Assembly (NCBI RefSeq): GCF_001941825.1
Contig: NZ_CP019038.1
Location: 1,550,001-1,614,000 of the forward strand
Length of the DNA: 64,000 nucleotides
Origin: Massilia putida
GTDB lineage: Bacteria; Pseudomonadota; Gammaproteobacteria; Burkholderiales; Burkholderiaceae_D
Reading direction: 5' to 3'
Shown here: piece after piece, positions 5,973 through 23,145 of the stretch
Layout of the letters: each line of letters opens with the position of its first letter
Numbering within the stretch: the first letter of the stretch is position 1
Translations under genes and position numbers: made by a program
Notes under the pieces: model-generated
The model's input: the letters and a program-made list of their open reading frames with translations, nothing else
Told to the model about the DNA's origin: nothing
Databases searched by the model: none

Positions 5973-6087
5973 CTCTCTCTTCCATGGTAGTGGTGTTGTT
6001 ATCCCCGCCGGGTAGGCGGGCGAATGAATCTATCATGGATGAGCAGGATGATGAGGATCGTGAACGACGGTGGCGTCGGCAAACCGG

Positions 6088-6115
6088 CGCACGATCCTGT
6101 ACGCACGATCCTGTA
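6088..6115. repeat. Perfect 14-bp tandem duplication
   Basis: The unit CGCACGATCCTGTA occurs twice head to tail (6088-6101 and 6102-6115) in the 253-bp space between the divergent DUF885 and DksA-like genes. It lies 111-138 bases before the DksA-like start. It could be a recent slippage event or a pair of regulator half-sites. No other feature in this spacer is convincing apart from a small hairpin, GTCGGT-TTGCTG-ACCGAC, at 6180-6197. Confidence 0.75.
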
Positions 6116-6225
6116 CTTATCGTTTAGACTGCCGTCCAAGGTGCACGCCCCGAGCGATAAGAACGATGACACCGTCGGAGTCGGTTTGCTGACCGACGCA
6201 TTTGACTTAAAAAAGGACGACGACC

Positions 6226-6624
6226 ATGCCGCCAATTTCACCTGAATTACACGAGGAACTCGGCAAGCGCCTGCGCAAGAGCCGCGAGGATGTGCTGGCC
6301 GCCGTGCATGCGCGCACGGACGGCGATACCGACGACCGCCCGGCGATCTCGCCGAACGCCCACATGGGACAGAACGACGACGCGCCGGCCGGCGAGATGC
6401 TCAGCCATAACGAGGAACACCTGGCCGAGCACGAGACGAATCTGCTGCACGAAATCGACGCCGCCATCGCCCGCCTGGATTCCGGCGCGATCGGCGTCTG
6501 CGAATCGTGCGGGCGCGAGATTCCCGAGGCGCGCCTGCTCGCCACGCCGACGGTGCGGACGTGCATCGCCTGCCAGGAGCAGATCGAGCACGAACGGCGT
6601 ACCGGTCGCGGGCCGACCATGTGA
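6226..6624 (+). CDS. DksA/TraR-family C4 zinc-finger protein
   Basis: A 132-residue protein with a charged helical N-terminal half (coiled-coil-like, residues 5-85) and a C-terminal DksA/TraR zinc finger with Cys92, Cys95, Cys113 and Cys116 (CESCGREI...CIAC). Family members enter the RNA polymerase secondary channel and modulate initiation, often with ppGpp. It is smaller than the housekeeping DksA (about 150 residues) and lacks an obvious Asp pair at a coiled-coil tip, so it is a paralogue rather than dksA itself. AAGGA lies about eight bases before the ATG. It is monocistronic as far as visible; a 12-bp inverted repeat follows. Confidence 0.88.
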   Translation: MPPISPELHEELGKRLRKSREDVLAAVHARTDGDTDDRPAISPNAHMGQNDDAPAGEMLSHNEEHLAEHETNLLHEIDAAIARLDSGAIGVCESCGREIPEARLLATPTVRTCIACQEQIEHERRTGRGPTM

Positions 6625-6645
6625 TCGAGCGCCGTCGCTGAGAAT

Positions 6646-6692
6646 GCGGCGGACGGCCCTTCGATCTCACCGGACCGCCCGCCGTCCGCCGC
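6646..6692. terminator. Inverted repeat after the DksA-like gene
   Basis: Perfect 12-bp arms GCGGCGGACGGC (6646-6657) and GCCGTCCGCCGC (6681-6692), separated by 23 bases. It starts 21 bases after the stop codon. The long loop and the lack of a T-run make it an atypical terminator; it may instead be a repeat or an RNA-stability hairpin. Confidence 0.45.
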
Positions 6693-7009
6693 GCCGAAGA
6701 CGATCCGCGCCGCGAACGCGACGGGCATCGCGGACAGCGGCACCGGCACCAACCAGGCTTCCATCGCCTCCCCCTCCTCAGCCGGAGTGCGTCGAGCACG
6801 GCCGGCGATCTAGTTATCGCGCGCGTTCAAGACGGACGACACCTGTCCGGCTGCCCCCGCATCTCCGGAACGCACAAAAACGAAGCGCACTGATGAAAAA
6901 AACCGACACGCCGCCCGGCCGTTAAAATGAGGTACCCTGCGCGCATGTGGCTGCCAGATTTACTGTTTTTGCCTTGATAAATCTCTACCAACCCCAACTG
7001 TAGCCGTTG
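6693..7009. other. Leader region of the Pls-like gene, no gene seen
   Basis: About 317 bases without a convincing gene. It contains a 10-codon open frame starting MKKTDTPPGR (6893-6925) with no clear ribosome site, then an A+T-richer stretch at 6925-6990 that probably holds the promoter of the synthetase gene. I could not assign -35 and -10 boxes with confidence. Confidence 0.4.
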
Positions 7010-10000
7010 ATGAACGATATCTCTCCTCTGACACGGCATCCCGATGTCCTCTACGGTCCGCATCAACCCGAGTTGTTGCGCGACGAAATCCTGGCCGATC
7101 TGCTGGAGGCGAGCGCACGCCGCGCGCCCGACCAGATCGCCCTGATCGCGGGCGACCGCCGCCTCACTTACCGCGAACTGGACGAACAGGCCAGCCTGGC
7201 CGCGTCGCGCCTGATCGACGCCGGCATCCGGCCCGGCCACATCGTCGGATTGTGGATGCCGCGCGGCATCGACTTGCTCGTCATGCAAGCCGCCATCGCC
7301 AAGGCCGGCGCCGCCTGGCTGCCCGTCGACGAGGACACGCCCGTCGAGCGGCTCCTCGTATGCATGGAAGACGCCGGCTCGCCCGCCCTCGTCAGCAGCG
7401 AGCGCATGCGCGACCGCCTCGGCCCCGTCCCACAGCCGATTCATACGGCGGAAACCCTGCTGGCGCCCGCGCCCGAAGGCTATTTGCTCAGCCGCCGCGG
7501 CGAGGTGTCCGGCGACGCCCCGGCCTACGTCATCTACACGTCGGGCTCGACGGGCAGGCCGAAAGGCATCCTGATCAACCAGCGCAGCATCTGCCATTTC
7601 CTGCGCAGCGAGAACGAAGTGCTGGGCGTCAAGGCGTCCGATCGCGTGTACCAGGGGTTTTCGGTCGCCTTCGACATGTCGTTCGAGGAAATCTGGATTC
7701 CCTACCTCGTCGGCGCCACCTTGTGGATCGGCCCGAAGGAGACGGCCGGCGACCCGGAAGCCCTGCCCCGCCTGCTGATGGAAAACGGCGTGACGGTGCT
7801 GCACGCCGTGCCGACGCTGCTCGCACTGTTCGCGGATGACGTTCCGAGCCTGCGCATCATCAACCTGGGCGGGGAAATGTGCCCGGAGACCGTGGTCGAG
7901 CGCTTTTCCAAGCCGGGCCGGCAAATGTTCAACACCTATGGCCCGACGGAAGCGACGGTGTCGGCCAGCCTCGCGCGCCTGGAGCCGGGCCGCTTGATCA
8001 CGATCGGCACGCCCCTGCCCAACTATGGCTTGCTCGTCATTTCCACCGAGACAGATAAAGGCTTGCAAATCCTGCCGCGCGGCGACACGGGCGAGCTGTG
8101 CATCATCGGGCCGGGCTTGTCGGCCGGCTACCTCGGCCGCCCCGACCTGACGGCCGAGAAATTCCTGGCGAATCCATGGAGCTCCGGTCCGGACGATTCG
8201 CGCCTGTACCGCACGGGCGACCTCGCGCGCATCGAGCCGGATGGCCAGGTCGCGTGCCTGGGCCGCACGGACGACCAGGTCAAGATCCGTGGTTTCCGCG
8301 TGGAACTGGGCGAGATCGAAGCCCAGCTCGCCCAGCAGGAAGGCGTCGGCACGACGGCCGTGCTGCTGCGCCGCGATGACGGCATCGACCGCCTCGTCGC
8401 CTACCTCGTCCCGGCCGCCGGCGCGACCGAAGAGCAATTGTCTCCGGCGACCCTGCGCCGCGCGCTGTCCGGCAAGCTGCCGCCGTACATGGTGCCGAGC
8501 CGCTTCGAGCGATTGTCGGTGATGCCGCGCCTGACGTCCGGCAAGATCGACCGCAAGGCGTTGAAGGCGATGGCCCTGTCGGCCCCGCTGCCCAGCGATC
8601 CGGCCGAATCGGACGTGGCGGAAACGCCGGGCGAGGAAGCGCTGTTCGCGGCGCTGGCCAAGCTGTTCCCGGGCCAGCCGATCCGTAGAGAGCTGGATTT
8701 CTTCAGCGACCTCGGCGGCCACTCGTTCTTCGCCGCCCGCTTGGCCACGGCCCTGCGCGCCGATCCGCGCTTCGCCCACGTGACGGTGCGCGACATTTAT
8801 TCGCACCGCAGAATCGGCGCCATTGCCTCCAGCCTCGACCAGGCCGCCGGCACGGCCGCCGTCGAGCCCGACTGGACGCCGCCCGGCAGCGCGCGCCGCT
8901 GGATGTGCGGCGTGGCCCAGCTGGCGACCGTCCCCGTGCTGATCACGTTGCGCATGGCGCAATGGCTGGCGCCGTTCTTTACGTACCACTTCTTCACGGG
9001 CGACCCGGGCGACTCGGTCCCGCGCGCCATCGCCGCGTCGATCGGGGTGTTCCTGCTGGCGACCCTGCTGGAATTCGTGTTCGCGATCGGCGGTAAGTGG
9101 CTGGTCGCGGGCCGCCTCAAGCCGGGCGTGTACCCGTTGTGGGGCACGACGTATTTCCGCTGGTGGCTGTCCGACCGGCTCGTCGAGGCCGCCCCGACCT
9201 ATCTGCTGGCGGGCTCGTCGCTGTACGGCTGGTATCTGCGCCTGCTGGGGGCGAAGGTCGGGCACGACGTCGTGATCGGCTCGCTGACGCTCCGCGCGCC
9301 CGACCTGCTCGAGATCGGCGACAACGTCAGCATCGGCAATGCCGCCAACTTCGAGAACGCGCGCGTCGAACGGGGCCGCCTGATCCTCGGCCGCGTCGTG
9401 CTCGACGACGATGCGTGCGTATCGTCGTACGCGATTTTGGAAGGCAATACGCGCGTGGGCCGGCGCGGCCACCTGGAAGGCCAGTCCGCGCTGCCGGACG
9501 GCGCATCCGTGCCGGACGGCCGCGTCTGGAGCGGCTCGCCCGCGCGCGACACCGGGGCATTCGACCCGTCGACACTCCCGCCGCGCCCGGCCGTGAGCCG
9601 CGCCCGCCTGATGGGCGAGGGACTGTTCTTCGTGTTCGGCATGCTGCTCGTCGCGACGCTGTTCTTCATGCCCGTCTTCCCCAGCTTCGTGCTGATCGAC
9701 TGGTTCGACGAACGGGGCACCCTGCCCGTGCTGGCGCAGAATTCGATCCAGGGCCAGCTGTTGCGCTATTTCGTACTGGCGCTGCCCGCGTCCGCCGTGC
9801 TGATCGCGCTGACGATGCTCGTGTCGGCCGCCATCCGCTGGGGCTTCCTGCCCCGCATGATGCCTGGCCGCTCGGCCGTGCACAGCAACGCGTATTGCAA
9901 GAAATGGCTCGTGAGCCATATCCAGGAATCGAGTTTGAACGTGCTGCACGGCATCTACGCGACCGTGTTCGCGCCGTTCTGGTACCGCCTGCTGGGCGCC

Positions 10001-11035
10001 AAGGTTGGCCGCGACGCCGAGATCTCGACGGCGCTGGGCGTCGTCCCGGACATGCTCACGCTGGGCGACGAGACGTTCATCGCCGACGCCGTCATGCTGG
10101 GCGACGAGCAGATCGACGGCGGCTGGATGACGATGGAAGCGACCGTCGTCTCCAACCGCAGCTTCGTCGGCAACGGCAGCTATATCCCGGACGGCACCGT
10201 GCTGCCCGAAGGCGTCCTCGTGGGCGTGCACACGCACGCGCCCGCGAACGAGCGCATGACGGGCGGCGACACGTGGCTCGGCTCGCCGCCGATCCACCTG
10301 CCGGCGCGCGAACAGGTCAGCGGCTATCCGGAACACCTGACGTACCGCCCGTCGCCACAGCGCCGCCTGGGCCGGGCGCTCGTCGAGGCCTTCCGCATCG
10401 TCGCGCCGCACGCCGTCGTCATCGCCGTCGGCTACACGGTCGTGCTGGACCTGATGCCGCTCGCGGGCGCCGGCCGCTGGGGCGAAGTGATCTGGGACCT
10501 GGCCCTCGTCGGCCTCGCCTACGGCATCGGCAACTACCTGTTCGTGCTCGCCTTCAAATGGCTGCTGCTGGGCCGCTATGAAAAGCGCGCGGAACCGATG
10601 TGGACGCCGTTCGTGTGGCTGTCCGAAGGCGTGACGAATATGTACGAGGGCATCGCCGTGCCCAACTTCATGCGCTACCTGCGCGGCACGCCCTGGCTGC
10701 CCCTCGCGTTCAACCTGCTCGGCTGCCGCATCGGCCGCGGCGTCTACATGGACACGACCGACATCACGGAGTTCGACTGCGTGACGATCGGCGACCACAG
10801 CGAACTGAATGCGCTGTCGTGCCCGCAGACGCACTTGTTCGAGGACCGGGTGATGAAGATCGATCATGTCGACATCGGCAGCAAGGTGTACCTGGGGCCG
10901 CGCAGCGCCGTGCTGTACAGCGCGAAGGTCGGGGACAATGCCCGCATCGGCCCGCTGACCCTCGTCATGAAGGGCGAGCACATCCCGGCCGCGACCGGCT
11001 GGAACGGCTTGCCGGCGGCACCGCAGCGGGTGTGA
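7010..11035 (+). CDS. Pls/PosA-type membrane-bound single-module NRPS (poly-amino-acid synthetase-like)
   Basis: A 1341-residue protein with the architecture of epsilon-poly-L-lysine synthetase. Adenylation domain, about residues 25-520: A3 YTSGSTGRPKG near 177, A5 NTYGPTEA, A7 YRTGDLA, A8 IRGFRVELGEIEA, A10 SGKIDRKAL. Thiolation domain: GGHS with Ser572 as phosphopantetheine site. From about 630 it becomes membrane-spanning, with three soluble left-handed beta-helix (hexapeptide) segments near 768-850, 1016-1080 and 1260-1330. There is no thioesterase or classical condensation domain; in Pls the C-terminal tandem domains make isopeptide bonds iteratively. The alpha-amino-anchoring Asp is in AFDMSFEE, and the acidic residue four later suits a basic amino acid; the product (poly-lysine, -ornithine or other) is inference. 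ATG 7010 was chosen over TTG 7007; neither has a good ribosome site. The next gene supplies a phosphopantetheinyl transferase. Confidence 0.92.
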   Translation: MNDISPLTRHPDVLYGPHQPELLRDEILADLLEASARRAPDQIALIAGDRRLTYRELDEQASLAASRLIDAGIRPGHIVGLWMPRGIDLLVMQAAIAKAGAAWLPVDEDTPVERLLVCMEDAGSPALVSSERMRDRLGPVPQPIHTAETLLAPAPEGYLLSRRGEVSGDAPAYVIYTSGSTGRPKGILINQRSICHFLRSENEVLGVKASDRVYQGFSVAFDMSFEEIWIPYLVGATLWIGPKETAGDPEALPRLLMENGVTVLHAVPTLLALFADDVPSLRIINLGGEMCPETVVERFSKPGRQMFNTYGPTEATVSASLARLEPGRLITIGTPLPNYGLLVISTETDKGLQILPRGDTGELCIIGPGLSAGYLGRPDLTAEKFLANPWSSGPDDSRLYRTGDLARIEPDGQVACLGRTDDQVKIRGFRVELGEIEAQLAQQEGVGTTAVLLRRDDGIDRLVAYLVPAAGATEEQLSPATLRRALSGKLPPYMVPSRFERLSVMPRLTSGKIDRKALKAMALSAPLPSDPAESDVAETPGEEALFAALAKLFPGQPIRRELDFFSDLGGHSFFAARLATALRADPRFAHVTVRDIYSHRRIGAIASSLDQAAGTAAVEPDWTPPGSARRWMCGVAQLATVPVLITLRMAQWLAPFFTYHFFTGDPGDSVPRAIAASIGVFLLATLLEFVFAIGGKWLVAGRLKPGVYPLWGTTYFRWWLSDRLVEAAPTYLLAGSSLYGWYLRLLGAKVGHDVVIGSLTLRAPDLLEIGDNVSIGNAANFENARVERGRLILGRVVLDDDACVSSYAILEGNTRVGRRGHLEGQSALPDGASVPDGRVWSGSPARDTGAFDPSTLPPRPAVSRARLMGEGLFFVFGMLLVATLFFMPVFPSFVLIDWFDERGTLPVLAQNSIQGQLLRYFVLALPASAVLIALTMLVSAAIRWGFLPRMMPGRSAVHSNAYCKKWLVSHIQESSLNVLHGIYATVFAPFWYRLLGAKVGRDAEISTALGVVPDMLTLGDETFIADAVMLGDEQIDGGWMTMEATVVSNRSFVGNGSYIPDGTVLPEGVLVGVHTHAPANERMTGGDTWLGSPPIHLPAREQVSGYPEHLTYRPSPQRRLGRALVEAFRIVAPHAVVIAVGYTVVLDLMPLAGAGRWGEVIWDLALVGLAYGIGNYLFVLAFKWLLLGRYEKRAEPMWTPFVWLSEGVTNMYEGIAVPNFMRYLRGTPWLPLAFNLLGCRIGRGVYMDTTDITEFDCVTIGDHSELNALSCPQTHLFEDRVMKIDHVDIGSKVYLGPRSAVLYSAKVGDNARIGPLTLVMKGEHIPAATGWNGLPAAPQRV

Positions 11036-11637
11036 TGGATGCGTTGCCCGTGCGCTGGTGGGCGGACGGCGCGTTCACGGACGCGCCGGCTTCGGGGCCG
11101 GTGCACGTCGTCGGCGTGCGCAACCAGCCCGACCGTGCCACGGCCCGCCGCACGATCCGCGCCGCGCTGCTGGACGCGCTCGCGGCGTCGGCCGGCCTGC
11201 CTCCGGCACGGATCCGGCTGTGCGGCGCGCCGGGCGAAGCGCCCTACGCCCTGCTCGACGACGGCCGGCGCATCAACCTGTCGATCAGCCACGACGGCGA
11301 CCTGTCGGTCGCGGCCCTGCGCCTGGACGGGGGCGCCGTCGGCATCGACCTGATGCGCGTGGCCGACATCCCGGACTGGCAAGCCGTCGCCCGCGACTAC
11401 CTCGGCCCCGCGTGCGCGGCCGCGCTGGCCCGCGTGCCCGCGCCGGCGCGCGCCGCCGCGTTCGCGCGCGCGTGGAGCGGGCGCGAAGCCCGTCTCAAAT
11501 GCCTGGGCCAGCCGCTGGCGGAATGGCGGGCCGACGAGGCGGGCGAAGCGCGCTTCGCCCGCTTGGCCGCGAGCGCCTGCTGGCCGCTGGCGGTGCCGGA
11601 GGGCTATGTCGGCAGCCTGGCGCTCCCTCAGGACTGA
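11035..11637 (+). CDS. 4'-phosphopantetheinyl transferase
   Basis: A 200-residue Sfp-type transferase that moves phosphopantetheine from CoA to a carrier-domain serine. Seen motifs: INLSISHDGD, the Mg-binding GID at residues 103-105, and WSGREARLK (W147, E151, K155), the family W-x3-E-x3-K signature with Arg in place of the usual first Lys. The start codon overlaps the synthetase stop by one base (TGATG), so the two are translationally coupled. Its client is very probably Ser572 of the upstream synthetase. The N-terminal 40 residues are weakly conserved. Sequence is typical of the neighbourhood in GC content, with no sign of recent acquisition. Confidence 0.9.
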   Translation: MDALPVRWWADGAFTDAPASGPVHVVGVRNQPDRATARRTIRAALLDALAASAGLPPARIRLCGAPGEAPYALLDDGRRINLSISHDGDLSVAALRLDGGAVGIDLMRVADIPDWQAVARDYLGPACAAALARVPAPARAAAFARAWSGREARLKCLGQPLAEWRADEAGEARFARLAASACWPLAVPEGYVGSLALPQD

Positions 11638-11670
11638 CCTATCCGCTTGCGATTTGGGTAAGATTGCAGA

Positions 11671-12900
11671 ATGGATAACCTGACCCACTCCGTCGTCGGC
11701 CTCGGCCTCGGCGCGCTGATCGACCGCAGCGTCCCCCCCGAAGGCGCGGACGACACCCAGCGCGTGCGCACGCGCATGCTGCTGACCATCGGCTGCCTCG
11801 CCAGCAATTTCCCCGACCTGGACCTCGTGCTCACACGGCTGCTGGAAGCGCCGCTGGGCTATCTGCTGCATCACCGCGGCCATACGCATACCTTGGTGGG
11901 CGCGCTCGGCGAAGTCGCACTGCTGCTGGGGCTCGTCTGGCTGTCGTGGCCTGCCGCGCGGCAGCTGCTGCGCACCAGCCGCCGCGCCCGCCTCGCGGCG
12001 CTCGGCACCGCCTGCGCCGGAATGCTGCTGCATATGTCGATGGATGGCCTGAACGTCTACGGCGTGCACCCGTTCTGGCCGTTCGATGCGCGCTGGTATT
12101 ACGGCGACCTCATCTTTATCGTCGAGCCCGTGTTCTGGATCGCGTTCGGCATCCCGCTCGCGCTGATGGTGCGGGGGCGCGTGCCGCGCGCCCTGCTGCT
12201 CGGCCTGCTGGTGGCCTTGCCCGTCGTCGTGACGTTCGCCGGCTTCCTGCGATGGGGTTCGCTGGCCGGACTGCTGATGCTGGCCGGACTGCTCGGCTGG
12301 ATCGCACGCCGACACGACGGCGTGCGCGGGCGTGCGGCCCTGGTGTCCGGACTGGCCGCGGCGCTCGCTTTCGTCGCGGTCCAGGCCGCGGCCATGCACG
12401 CGGCGCGCGACACCGTCGCGGCAGCCATTGCGCGCCTCGACCCGGGCGAGCGCCTGCTCGACACGGCCCTGTCCGCCTATCCCGCCAATCCGCTGTGCTG
12501 GTCGTTCGTGACGGTGGCGGCCGATGCCGCGCACGGCAGCTACCACCTGCGCCGCGGCCTGGTCAGCGTCGCGCCGGGCGTCAGCCGCGTCGCCGCCTGC
12601 CCGGCGGCCATCGGCGGCCCGGCCGGCGACGCCGACGCCGGCCTCGCGTGGCAAAGCGACGAGCGCGACGACCTGGCGCACCTGCACGACCTGCAGGCGA
12701 CCAATTGCCACTTCAACGCCTGGATGCGTTTCGCCCGCGCGCCCTCCATCGGCGCGGCGACGGCGACGGATGCGCGCTGGAGCCCGCCCGGCAGCGCCAA
12801 TTTCTCGACCATCGATTATGCGGGCCTCGCATCCAGGCCCTGTCCCGATCCCGTGCCGGATTGGGGCTATCCCCGCGCCGATCTGCTGCGGCAGCCGTGA
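11671..12900 (+). CDS. YdjM/DUF457-family membrane metal-dependent hydrolase
   Basis: A 409-residue inner-membrane protein. N-terminal motifs NLTHSVVG, NFPDLDLV, HHRGHTHTLVG and LHMSMDGLNVYG supply the His/Asp metal ligands of the DUF457 (YdjM-like) family. Several transmembrane helices follow, between about residues 75 and 245, then a soluble C-terminal domain of about 150 residues. Related proteins are called 'LexA-regulated membrane hydrolases', but the substrate is unknown. It begins 33 bases after the transferase and could be co-transcribed with the Pls-like pair. It converges on the glycosyltransferase with a 12-base gap. Confidence 0.8.
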   Translation: MDNLTHSVVGLGLGALIDRSVPPEGADDTQRVRTRMLLTIGCLASNFPDLDLVLTRLLEAPLGYLLHHRGHTHTLVGALGEVALLLGLVWLSWPAARQLLRTSRRARLAALGTACAGMLLHMSMDGLNVYGVHPFWPFDARWYYGDLIFIVEPVFWIAFGIPLALMVRGRVPRALLLGLLVALPVVVTFAGFLRWGSLAGLLMLAGLLGWIARRHDGVRGRAALVSGLAAALAFVAVQAAAMHAARDTVAAAIARLDPGERLLDTALSAYPANPLCWSFVTVAADAAHGSYHLRRGLVSVAPGVSRVAACPAAIGGPAGDADAGLAWQSDERDDLAHLHDLQATNCHFNAWMRFARAPSIGAATATDARWSPPGSANFSTIDYAGLASRPCPDPVPDWGYPRADLLRQP

Positions 12901-19665: not shown

Positions 19666-22600
19666 ATGTTCGCACTGCCTTTTCCGATTCCCTCGCGCGG
19701 CCCGCGCCTGTTCGCGCTGGCGCTGGTGCTGTCCGTGCTGTCCCTGCTGGGAAGCGCGCGCGCCGCGCCGGCGCCGCTCGTGCTGGACGACGCCGCGTCC
19801 CACGTCGAAGCTTGGCCGGCCGTCACGCTGCTGCGCGATCCGGACGGCCGCGTCGAAGCGGCCGATCTCGTCGCCGCGCCGGAGCGCTTCACCGTACCGA
19901 ATGCGGCCTATGCCACGCTGGGCATGGAGAAAGGTCCCGTGTGGGTGCGCATCCCCGTGCAGACGGCACCGGGCGGCGACGGCGCGTGGGCGCTCAAGAT
20001 CGACTTCGGCCTGCTGAACCGCGTCGACCTGTACGTCGTGCGCGCCGGCCGCATCGAGCGCCATGCGCGCGGCGGATCGGAACGGACGGACGAGCGCAGC
20101 CCCATCGCGCGCGGCGGCCCGGTGCCGGCGTTCCTGCTGCAGCTGGAGCCGGGCGAGCGCTACGACGTGCTGCTGCGCGTGGACACGAACGGACCGAAGA
20201 TCCTGCCGATCAGCTTCGCCAAACCCGCCACGTTCTACCAGGACGCGCTGCACGACCGGCTGGTGCAGGGCATCCTCACGGGCCTGTTCATCTGCCTGCT
20301 GCTGTACAGCCTCGCGCAATGGGTCAACCTGCGCGAGATCCTGTTCGCCAAGTATTCGCTGCTGATCGGCGGCCTGGCCCTGTACAACATCGCGTGGTGG
20401 GGCCTCGGCGCCGAATACCTGTGGGGCGCCAGCACCTGGGCCACCGTGCACGCCACCGGCATCATCTCGCTGATGACGGCCTGCGGCGGCTATCTGTTCG
20501 TCGGCGAAGCGCTGACGCGGCCCGGCGTCGACCGCATCTTCCCGCGCCTGATGCAGACCGGCGCCGTGCTGTGCATCGTCGCGGCCACCGCCTTCGGCTT
20601 CGACCTGATCCACGACGCGGCCCTCGTGGCCATCATCGGCTCGCTGGGCATCATGCCGATGCTGCTGGGCCTTCCCGGCGCGTTCAACCGCGCGCGCCGC
20701 GGCGACACGGTCGGCACCTACTTCCTCATCGGCTGGGCCGCGAGCTTCGTCAGCTCGGCGATCCAGGCGCAGGTCATCAAGGGCGGCCTGGACGCCACCT
20801 ACTGGACGCTGAACTCCACGCAGTTCGGCGGCACGTTCGACATGCTCGTGTTCATGCGCATCCTGGGCCTGCGCACCAAGAGCATCCAGGACGCCATGCT
20901 GCGCGCCGAGGCGGCGACCCGCATGAAGTCGGAATTCCTGGCCAATATGAGCCACGAGATCCGCACGCCGATGAACGCCATCATCGGCATGAGCCGCCTC
21001 GCCCTGATGGCCGATCCGAACCCCAGGCAGCGCAACTACCTCTCCAAGATCCTCGGCGCGGGCGAGCACCTGCTGGGCATCATCAACGACATCCTCGACT
21101 TTTCCAAGATCGAGGCGGGCCGCATGACGCTCGACACCGTGCCGTTCGACCTCGACGACATGCTCGAACACCTGGCCAGCATCGCCGCCATCAAGACCGA
21201 CGCGCGCCGCGTGGAACTCGTGTTCTGCGTGCCGCGCGGCGTGCCGGGGCGCCTCGTGGGCGATCCGCTGCGCCTGGGCCAGGTGCTGATCAACCTGACC
21301 AACAACGCCGTCAAGTTCACGGAAGAAGGCGAGATCGCCGTCGCCGTCGAGCTGGTCGAGCGCACCGCGGCCGGCGTCGTGCTGCGCTTCTCCGTCAGCG
21401 ACACGGGCATCGGCATGGACGCCGACCAGCTGGCGCGCCTGTTCCAGTCCTTCACCCAGGCCGACAACTCCATCACCCGCAAATACGGCGGCACGGGCCT
21501 GGGCCTGTCGATCTCGAAGCAGCTCGTCGAACTGATGGGCGGCACGATCGCCGTCACCAGCACGCCAGGCGTCGGCAGCCGCTTCAGCTTCACGGTCCCG
21601 CTGGGCATCGCGGATGCCGACGCCACCGCCGCGCCGGCGCCGGGCCTGGAATTGCAGCGCATGCGCGTGATGGTCGTCGACGACAGCCCGGGCGCGCGCG
21701 ACGCGCTCGTCGAGATGCTGGACGGTTTCGGCATCCACGCCGACGCCGTCGCCTCGGGCGAGGAATCGCTGGCGCGGCTGGCGCAGGCCGTGCGGGAGGG
21801 CGCCCCGTACCAGGTGGTGCTGATGGATTACATGATGCCCGGCTGGGACGGCGTCGAGACGATCCGCCGCATCCGCGCCGACGCGCGTTTCACGGCGCCG
21901 CCCGCGATCCTGATGGTCAGCGCCTGCACCCGCGAAGGCGTGCTGCAGCAGGAAGGCGACCTGCCGCTGTCCGGCTTCCTCACCAAACCCGTCGGCCCGG
22001 CGCTGCTGTACGACAGCCTGCTGCAGGTGCTGCGCCCCGACCTGGCGGCGGCGTCCGCCTCCTCGGGCGGCGCGCAGAACGCGGCCGGTACGCAGTCCGA
22101 CGCGAACCGGCTGGCGGGCGCCCGCATCCTGCTCGTCGACGACAACGCCAACAACCGCGAGGTGGCGCTCGACTTCATGGCCGTCGCGCGCATGCGCGTC
22201 GACGCCGCCACGAGCGGCCAGGAAGCTATCCGCATGGCGCAGGACGGCGACTACGACCTCGTGCTGATGGACATCCAGATGCACGGGATGGACGGCTACA
22301 CGGCCACGCGCGCCATCCGCGCCCTGCCCGGCTGCGCCACCGTGCCGGTCGTCGCCATGACGGCGCACGCGATGGCCGGCGACCGCGAGAAGAGCCTCGC
22401 CGCCGGCATGAACGACCACGTCGTCAAGCCGATCGATCCGGACCTGCTGTTGCGCACCCTGGTGAAATGGATCGATCCGCAGCGCCTCGCCGGCCGCGTC
22501 GCGCCGCAAGCGGCGCCCGCACCGATCGTGCCGGCCGCCGCGCCAGCGGCGTTGCCGGCCGTGCGCGGCGTCGACTGGCATCGCGCGCTGGTGGGCGCCG

Positions 22601-23145
22601 GCGGCCAGCACCAGCGCCTGCGCCGCCGCGTCGCCGGGTTCCTGCAGGAATACCTGAACGCGCCGCAGCAGATGCGGGACGCGCTGGCGAACGGCGACTA
22701 CGCGCCGCTGCAGGCGCTGGCGCACAACCTCAAATCGGGCGCCGCCTACATCGGCGCGACGCCGCTGGCCACGCTGGCGGGCACGCTGGAGCAGGACCTG
22801 CGGTCAAGCCGCGCCGAGCGCGTGTCCGTGCTGGCGCCCGACCTGATCGTCGCGCTGGAGAGCGTCCTGTCGGGCCTGGCCCGCATCGACGCCGCCCAGG
22901 CGCCGACCGTCAGCGGCCTCGATGCCGGCGCCCTGCTCGCGCGCCTGCGCGGCTTCCTCGAAACGGACGATGCGCGCGCCGAGGACGCGCTGGCCGAGCT
23001 GCAGGGCGTCCTGACGGACGAGCGCCATGCCGCGCCGCTGTCCGCCATCCGCGCCGCCGTCGACGAGATCGAGTACGAGCGAGCGCTGGTCCACCTCGAC
23101 GCGCTGGAGCGCGCCGTCGACAACGAAGCGGAGGCCGCATCGTGA
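19666..23145 (+). CDS. Hybrid sensor histidine kinase, 7TMR-DISM / HisKA / HATPase / REC / REC / Hpt
   Basis: An 1159-residue inner-membrane phosphorelay kinase. Signal peptide to about residue 33; a periplasmic 7TMR-DISMED2-like beta-domain (about 38-180); seven transmembrane helices (about 195-400); HisKA with His430 in [10 protein letters not shown]; HATPase N-box [23 protein letters not shown] and GGTGLGLSI; two receiver domains with Asp721 ([11 protein letters not shown]) and Asp869 ([11 protein letters not shown]); and a C-terminal Hpt with His1020 ([12 protein letters not shown]). All transfer residues are present. Only three bases separate it from the oxygenase stop, with AAGGA before the ATG. 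It overlaps the cyclase gene by four bases. It probably senses a ligand linked to the upstream uptake/oxidation genes and signals to c-di-GMP. Confidence 0.93.

Follow-up and report, generated by a model that had tools for sequence, protein, structure and literature searches.

A Pls/PosA-family synthetase and a linked phosphopantetheinyl transferase in Massilia putida: a probable delta-poly-L-ornithine operon

Introduction

Which product is assembled by the Pls/PosA-family synthetase encoded in a 64,000-nucleotide stretch of the Massilia putida genome (contig NZ_CP019038.1, positions 1,550,001 to 1,614,000; hereafter the window), and does the phosphopantetheinyl transferase gene that overlaps its stop codon serve it? 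The two genes occupy positions 7010–11637 of the window. Our answer, to which we give a probability of roughly 0.8, is a two-gene operon that makes delta-poly-L-ornithine. We infer the substrate, bond, polymer and activity by analogy with PosA of Acinetobacter baumannii (PMC10522769). That the linked transferase serves the synthetase we infer from linkage and a conserved active site.

Results and discussion

Domain organization of the synthetase

The synthetase frame was read from an ATG at 7010 to a TGA stop at 11033–11035 (Table 1). It scored 860.1 bits against the NCBIfam model TIGR02353 (`Pls/PosA family non-ribosomal peptide synthetase'; cutoff 423.1) and its front part 389.3 bits against TIGR01733 (NCBIfam; cutoff 317.4), with the domains in the order AMP-binding, AMP-binding_C, carrier and TIGR02353 region. 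An earlier note made from the DNA alone had placed a Pls-like synthetase of adenylation (A)–thiolation (T)–membrane architecture at 7010–11637; the TIGR02353 score bore this out and the coordinates were right. The carrier motif LGGHS was kept in 81 of 81 aligned rows (a set of 80 related loci plus the window) and its serine in all 51 rows of a wider family alignment; PF00550 (Pfam) did not reach E 0.001 on the window carrier domain. Its sequence places the window synthetase in the Pls/PosA family, and pocket and clade place it in the ornithine branch of that family.

Three distinct segments of the C-terminal region (approximately residues 112–235, 363–462 and 586–701 of 706) were matched by PDB proteins with beta-helices. 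Hexapep (PF00132) scored 30.7 bits over the whole protein (cutoff 27), the single repeats each being not significant. These matches support, at the level of sequence, the three tandem C-terminal beta-helix domains described in the earlier note. Five hydropathy clusters rose above the threshold (residues 669–698, 872–890, 921–947, 1123–1153 and 1164–1182), whereas the C-terminal domain of PosA was modelled as a single catalytic body of six membrane helices and three beta-helices (PMC10522769). Among the C-terminal residues shared by all 51 aligned sequences are W719, G842, N1055, Q1273, H1275 and E1323.

Table 1. Features of the synthetase–transferase locus (window positions, 5' to 3').
Feature	Position	Strand	Details
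Pls/PosA-family non-ribosomal peptide synthetase, A-T-membrane/beta-helix polymerisation domain	7010..11035	+	1341 aa; TIGR02353 and TIGR01733
Adenylation core (PF00501, AMP-binding)	7103..8134	+	245 bits; 58% identity (236/407) to PosA 8g95
Pocket positions 1 to 9: D222 M223 E226 H265 N285 G287 T309 V317 S318 (ATG = 1)	7673..7963	+	8g95 column alignment
AMP-binding_C subdomain (PF13193)	8312..8545	+	30.6 bits (cutoff 24.5); pocket lysine K512 at end
Thiolation (carrier) domain	8627..8845	+	LGGHS motif; serine 572 at 8723–8725
TIGR02353 C-terminal polymerisation domain	8912..11017	+	Profile positions 1–695 of 695; residues 636–1337 of P0001
Predicted left-handed beta-helix stretch 1	9248..9619	+	PDB gamma-carbonic-anhydrase matches, best E 3.5e-5
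Predicted left-handed beta-helix stretch 2	10001..10300	+	PDB match YrdA, E 3.4e-6; LbH_EIF2B under its cutoff
Predicted left-handed beta-helix stretch 3	10670..11017	+	Best PF00132 stretch here; PDB matches E 0.026 or weaker
4'-Phosphopantetheinyl transferase	11035..11637	+	200 aa; PF01648 (ACPS) 36.9 bits (cutoff 25)

Adenylation pocket

The nearest solved structures to the adenylation domain were 8g95–8g98, the PosA adenylation domain of A. baumannii. In a column-by-column alignment with 8g95 all nine variable pocket positions were identical, and the tenth code position was a lysine in 81 of 81 aligned rows (80-locus set plus window). The complete window code is DMEHNGTVSK, as in PosA at 10 of 10 positions. 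In GrsA numbering, position 278 corresponds to H (266 of P0001), and N occupies code position 5. A hand alignment in the earlier note had begun the pocket with D, M, E and N; the first three residues stand and the N at 278 does not. The later positions, said there not to match a known code clearly, match PosA exactly, and the PosA code agrees with the suggested basic substrate, ornithine having been among the guesses. The published PosA code is D M E H N G T V S K (PMC10522769). In PosA, D217 and E221 are named as the most important residues, mutants showing that the D and E are needed, and M218 is described as a chain-length gauge, the same position being F in 2,3-diaminopropionate and 2,4-diaminobutyrate (DAB) enzymes and A in Pls (PMC10522769). 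The window synthetase has M at position 2, not the A of Pls. Extraction of the pocket code had been set beforehand as a test, a pocket lacking acidic residues speaking against the claim; the acidic D and E are present.

Two sets of loci were compared. The 55-locus set comprised 16 Massilia loci (L005–L020, found with the protein itself), 19 further loci from the family of the window (one or two per genus from 122 positive genomes, all 17 positive genera represented) and 20 loci from outside the family; L021, a fragment at a contig end, was excluded from the counts. The 80-locus set held the best 80 of 517, the closest kin of the window. DMEHNGTVSK was read in 16 of the 16 Massilia loci and in 16 of the 19 family loci, the remaining three having DMEHNGSVSK; these 19 had been found via the C-terminal model, which ignores the pocket. 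Outside the family DMEHNGTVSK occurred in four of the 20 loci, DMEHNGTVTK in one and other codes in 15. In the 80-locus set plus the window, DMEHNGTVSK was found in 80 of 81 rows and DMEHNGSVSK in one, with the pocket D, M and E partly present by construction because the set was searched with the peptides FDMSFEE and MWT[PF]FVW.

Other pockets were noted in L121 (DSECYGGVTK), L115 (DVEANGTGSK) and L126 (DFECISAVTK), possibly pointing to other polymers. DSECYGGVTK is the code given for an enzyme from Bdellovibrionales that shows modest activity with arginine (PMC10522769).

Phylogeny and distribution

A quick likelihood tree (LG+G4, midpoint root) with Shimodaira–Hasegawa-like approximate likelihood-ratio test (SH-aLRT) values and no bootstrap was built from 51 full-length rows: the window, 24 of the 80-locus set, 20 of the 55-locus set and six of eight plasmid records. 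L211 was dropped (the frame taken was not the synthetase and gave a nonsense pocket) and L215 was left out (the annotated gene is short). The window protein grouped with Massilia within a 32-row clade that includes the A. baumannii PosA-type protein L210 (SH-aLRT 100), and all 32 rows read DMEHNGTVSK. DLED- and DLEDL-type rows (Azospirillum and other members of the phylum) were the next to join, with support of 100. DAES-type rows (L127, L128, L213 and L214), DFEA-type rows and L116 lay outside, L116 despite its near-identical code DMEHNGTVTK; long branches on some of the outside rows leave the branching order among these unsure. The phylogeny had also been proposed as a check, with a place among known non-polymer synthetases counting against the claim; the clade found is that of a polymer synthetase.

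Identity to L210 is 54% overall (713 of 1326 aligned residues), and 59% in the A, 47% in the T and 52% in the C-terminal region. The closest named relatives of the protein are those of Massilia, with M. kyonggiensis at 95%, and relatives already bear the automatic name Pls/PosA.

Of 294 genomes sampled from the family, 122 (in 17 of 44 genera) had TIGR02353 at E 1e-60; the counts were 9 of 369 for the class and 27 of 398 for the phylum, with the window's own genome included in all three samples. At these frequencies the synthetase is an ordinary accessory gene in such bacteria. The window genome (7.5 Mb, three contigs) has one match over the cutoff. A search for near matches in E. coli genomes found none. 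A protein in a Cystobacter fuscus record (P0081) is 79% identical to the window synthetase, above what would be expected of myxobacterial descent; transfer or contamination may account for it. Copies that seem to be split or interrupted were seen in relatives at G287:C1:5044233-5046334, G334:C1:2789851-2791949 and G288:C1:5818990-5819775, the completeness of the G288 genome being 48%.

The linked phosphopantetheinyl transferase

The transferase frame starts with the ATG at 11035 and its stop ends at 11637. At the junction (gtgTGATGg) one base is common to the stop and the start, and with the match to PF01648 this confirmed the claim of an own transferase overlapping the synthetase stop. All 95 aligned rows have D105, W147 and E151, and 94 of them have K155, some genomes having been entered twice. 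With these four residues kept, presumably the catalytic D, W, E and K motif of phosphopantetheinyl transferases, the enzyme looks active. Its divergence is the faster of the two: among the Massilia loci its identity is 42–76%, against 81–95% for the synthetase.

Linkage was tested by tblastn on each synthetase plus 1300 bases downstream. Tblastn and Pfam took the place of an iterative transferase profile, which drifted onto frames of GC-rich DNA (members 68, 125, then 31) and whose hits were not used; a transferase motif scan missed loci found by tblastn and served only for the side observation on L112–L114 and L129 given below. All 16 Massilia loci of the 55-locus set had a transferase relative downstream, as did 67 of the 80-locus set (66 whole and L145, cut by a contig end), the latter share being that of the closest kin and not representative of the family. 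Among the 66 whole genes, for which start codons were chosen by alignment, the frame overlaps the synthetase stop in 32 and starts at most 40 bases from it in 58. By genus, whole linked genes were present in 10 of 10 Pseudomonas, 15 of 16 Janthinobacterium, 13 of 15 Massilia, eight of nine Duganella, three of five Rugamonas, three of four Undibacterium and none of four Collimonas loci. Three of the ten Pseudomonas loci with synthetase and linked transferase (L173, L179–L186 and L196), together with L110, were in the tree and nested within its Oxalobacteraceae part, which suggests that the pair was transferred together.

The idea that a divergent carrier domain explains the private transferase was considered and rejected: PF00550 at E 0.001 was reached alike by carriers with a linked gene (44 of 67; 66%) and without one (15 of 22; 68%, with L145 counted here although its contig holds the transferase start). 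Outside the family it was reached by 17 of 17 carriers (from 17 of the 20 loci).

Around the operon, the six flanking genes showed little synteny in the 80-locus set (YdjM in 13 of 80, DUF885 in five, DksA in three and the rest in at most six). No Rfam family reached its gathering score within window positions 6000–12000. Positions 19666–23145 of the window encode a hybrid histidine kinase with a 7TMR-DISM sensor, two receiver matches and Hpt.

Synthetases with the codes DFEALGTVTK or DFEALGTITK are followed by a small gene (L112:8124-9221, L113:3816-4941, L114:3824-4956, L129:8124-9298 and L217:6045-6512), annotated as a GNAT N-acetyltransferase in L217 (Phyllobacterium) only. In four of these five loci a frame with the motif KEAxYK, which we take to be typical of transferases, comes after the small gene. 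This is perhaps a second, separate transferase linkage. L112, L113 and L129 group with L217 in the tree; L114 is not among its rows.

Proposed product and alternatives

The reading of the locus as a delta-poly-L-ornithine operon is carried by the TIGR02353 score, the pocket identical to that of PosA (9 of 9 plus the lysine) and the clade shared with L210, and further by the conserved transferase motif, the linkage in 67 of the 80-locus set and the distribution of PF01648 and adenylation genes given below. In the proposed mechanism the transferase would load the phosphopantetheine arm onto serine 572, and the adenylation domain would activate L-ornithine with ATP for transfer to that arm. Chain growth would follow in the membrane-bound domain with its three beta-helices, which would link the alpha-carboxyl of each ornithine to the delta-amine of its successor. 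The product would be a short cationic isopeptide, released or exported at the membrane, which may act on fungi or biofilm; both its release route and its ecological role are guesses. PosA, treated with Sfp, activated L-ornithine in vitro, loaded it onto the carrier and polymerised it to 7–12 units via delta-amide bonds (PMC10522769), and the linked transferase would here do the job of Sfp. A synthetic 12-mer inhibited three fungi at 0.15–0.30 g/L, with a minimum inhibitory concentration of >0.30 for two Gram-negative bacteria (PMC10522769); an antifungal role is therefore plausible but unproven.

Several observations weigh against this reading. The PosA-type protein is only 54% identical. No transferase relative was found anywhere in the fetched stretch of 13 of the 80 loci, including all four of Collimonas, the sample across 17 genera had a linked transferase in just 11 of 19 loci, and outside the family it was linked in one of 20 (L110, of the Pseudomonas clade), L123 having only 285 bases downstream. 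Since linkage is so patchy, the transferase is not essential to the mechanism. Its fit to PF01648 is modest (36.9 against 25 bits), and phmmer against solved structures returned no transferase, its three matches (E 0.67 or weaker) all being proteasome subunits. The window transferase also has R where the usual motif, which we take to be WxxKE, has K.

The alternative that best survives, unlikely as we consider it, makes the transferase an Sfp-type enzyme of general function that happens to lie beside the synthetase and mainly serves other carrier proteins. The patchy linkage would suit it, as would three small carrier proteins (PF00550) in the window genome. Against it, the same genome has no other adenylation domain over the cutoff (one of 19 adenylation matches exceeds that of TIGR01733, namely the synthetase). 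The one PF01648 gene of that genome besides the linked transferase adjoins a pdxJ-like frame and reads as AcpS. In 24 synthetase genomes that were checked, 16 of 16 linked transferases were over the PF01648 cutoff. Of these 16 genomes, 11 had one further PF01648 match only, presumed to be AcpS (12 if a sub-cutoff match in G306 is omitted); the other five (G306 below the cutoff) had further matches, which again favours a general enzyme. All eight genomes without a linked transferase had at least one PF01648 gene beyond the presumed AcpS. For the contrast of 8 of 8 with 11 of 16 a one-sided Fisher test gave 0.0017, a guide only because the genomes are related and kinship was uncorrected. The pattern fits a linked gene that takes over activation of the synthetase in genomes lacking another such enzyme. 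The linked share of the 80-locus set, the 32 overlapping frames and the ten of ten Pseudomonas loci argue against a general enzyme.

It is quite improbable that the product is another basic amino-acid or mixed oligomer (DAB, arginine or hydroxyornithine) or that ornithine is added as a tag to another molecule. Stachelhaus codes are degenerate, and the neighbours do not indicate a product, few flanking genes recurring in relatives. Against this, the pocket is identical to that of an enzyme tested both biochemically and structurally, and no tailoring or acceptor enzyme was recognised among the scanned flanking genes. An epsilon-poly-L-lysine synthetase, to which the reasoning of the earlier note points, is the least credible option: family and architecture are those of Pls, the M218A variant of PosA gained nearly tenfold in efficiency with lysine and lysine was bound in a PosA crystal, but position 2 is M, against the A described for Pls (PMC10522769), and the four DAES-type rows lie outside the clade in a tree that was built without Pls.

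Beyond the delta-poly-L-ornithine operon itself, we tentatively entertain a broader view, with the odds somewhat against it: that a self-sufficient operon of this kind is typical of Oxalobacteraceae and their kin, that its own activator lets it work in any host and hence allowed it to move as a pair into Pseudomonas, and that soil and plant-associated bacteria widely use the polymer as a so far uncharted factor against fungi or in biofilms.

Comparison with known systems

PosA was the only delta-poly-ornithine synthetase found in the open-licence literature and comes from a human pathogen. It resembles the window synthetase in architecture, code and clade (with L210), and is the nearest characterised enzyme found, in place of the Streptomyces Pls named in the earlier note. 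It is reported as a single-gene operon (PMC10522769), whereas the Massilia synthetase overlaps a transferase gene. No transferase is annotated beside L210, and no relative of the Massilia transferase occurs in the L210 stretch. Pls of PDB entry 7wew, the source of which we take to be Streptomyces albulus, is like the window synthetase in family and domain order, its A domain matching at E 7.4e-80; it differs at pocket position 2 and, as far as a tree without Pls can tell, DAES-type rows fall outside the clade. Homologues in many bacterial genera are described with residues matching known synthetases, including the delta-poly-ornithine one (PMC10522769).

Antibiotics and secondary metabolite analysis shell (antiSMASH)-type predictions list non-alpha poly-amino acid (NAPAA) clusters in Janthinobacterium (PMC12618000) and Pseudomonas viridiflava (PMC13387001). 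These are probably the same gene family as the window synthetase, both taxa being in the locus set (L186 is P. viridiflava). The NAPAA family FAM_00384 of P. viridiflava is present in 28 isolates (37%) and correlates with plant size after infection (r 0.42; PMC13387001). L186 carries the PosA pocket and is a candidate link to FAM_00384.

The novelty for a betaproteobacterium that the earlier note had expected holds in part. The gene is common, relatives are named automatically and clusters are predicted in Janthinobacterium (PMC12618000), but no measured product from a betaproteobacterium was found in the open-licence literature, and such a polymer might still be a first. The same literature, covered mostly through its listings, yielded no mention of a transferase linked to a Pls/PosA-type synthetase. 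Strains of Massilia, Janthinobacterium or Duganella that share this pocket would allow product, release and role to be tested in environmental bacteria, and expression work would be eased by having a transferase linked. Should a large share of these bacteria make the polymer, it could add to the antifungal properties known from Janthinobacterium (PMC12618000). The Massilia synthetase joins a known family, and its conserved operon partner is worth noting.

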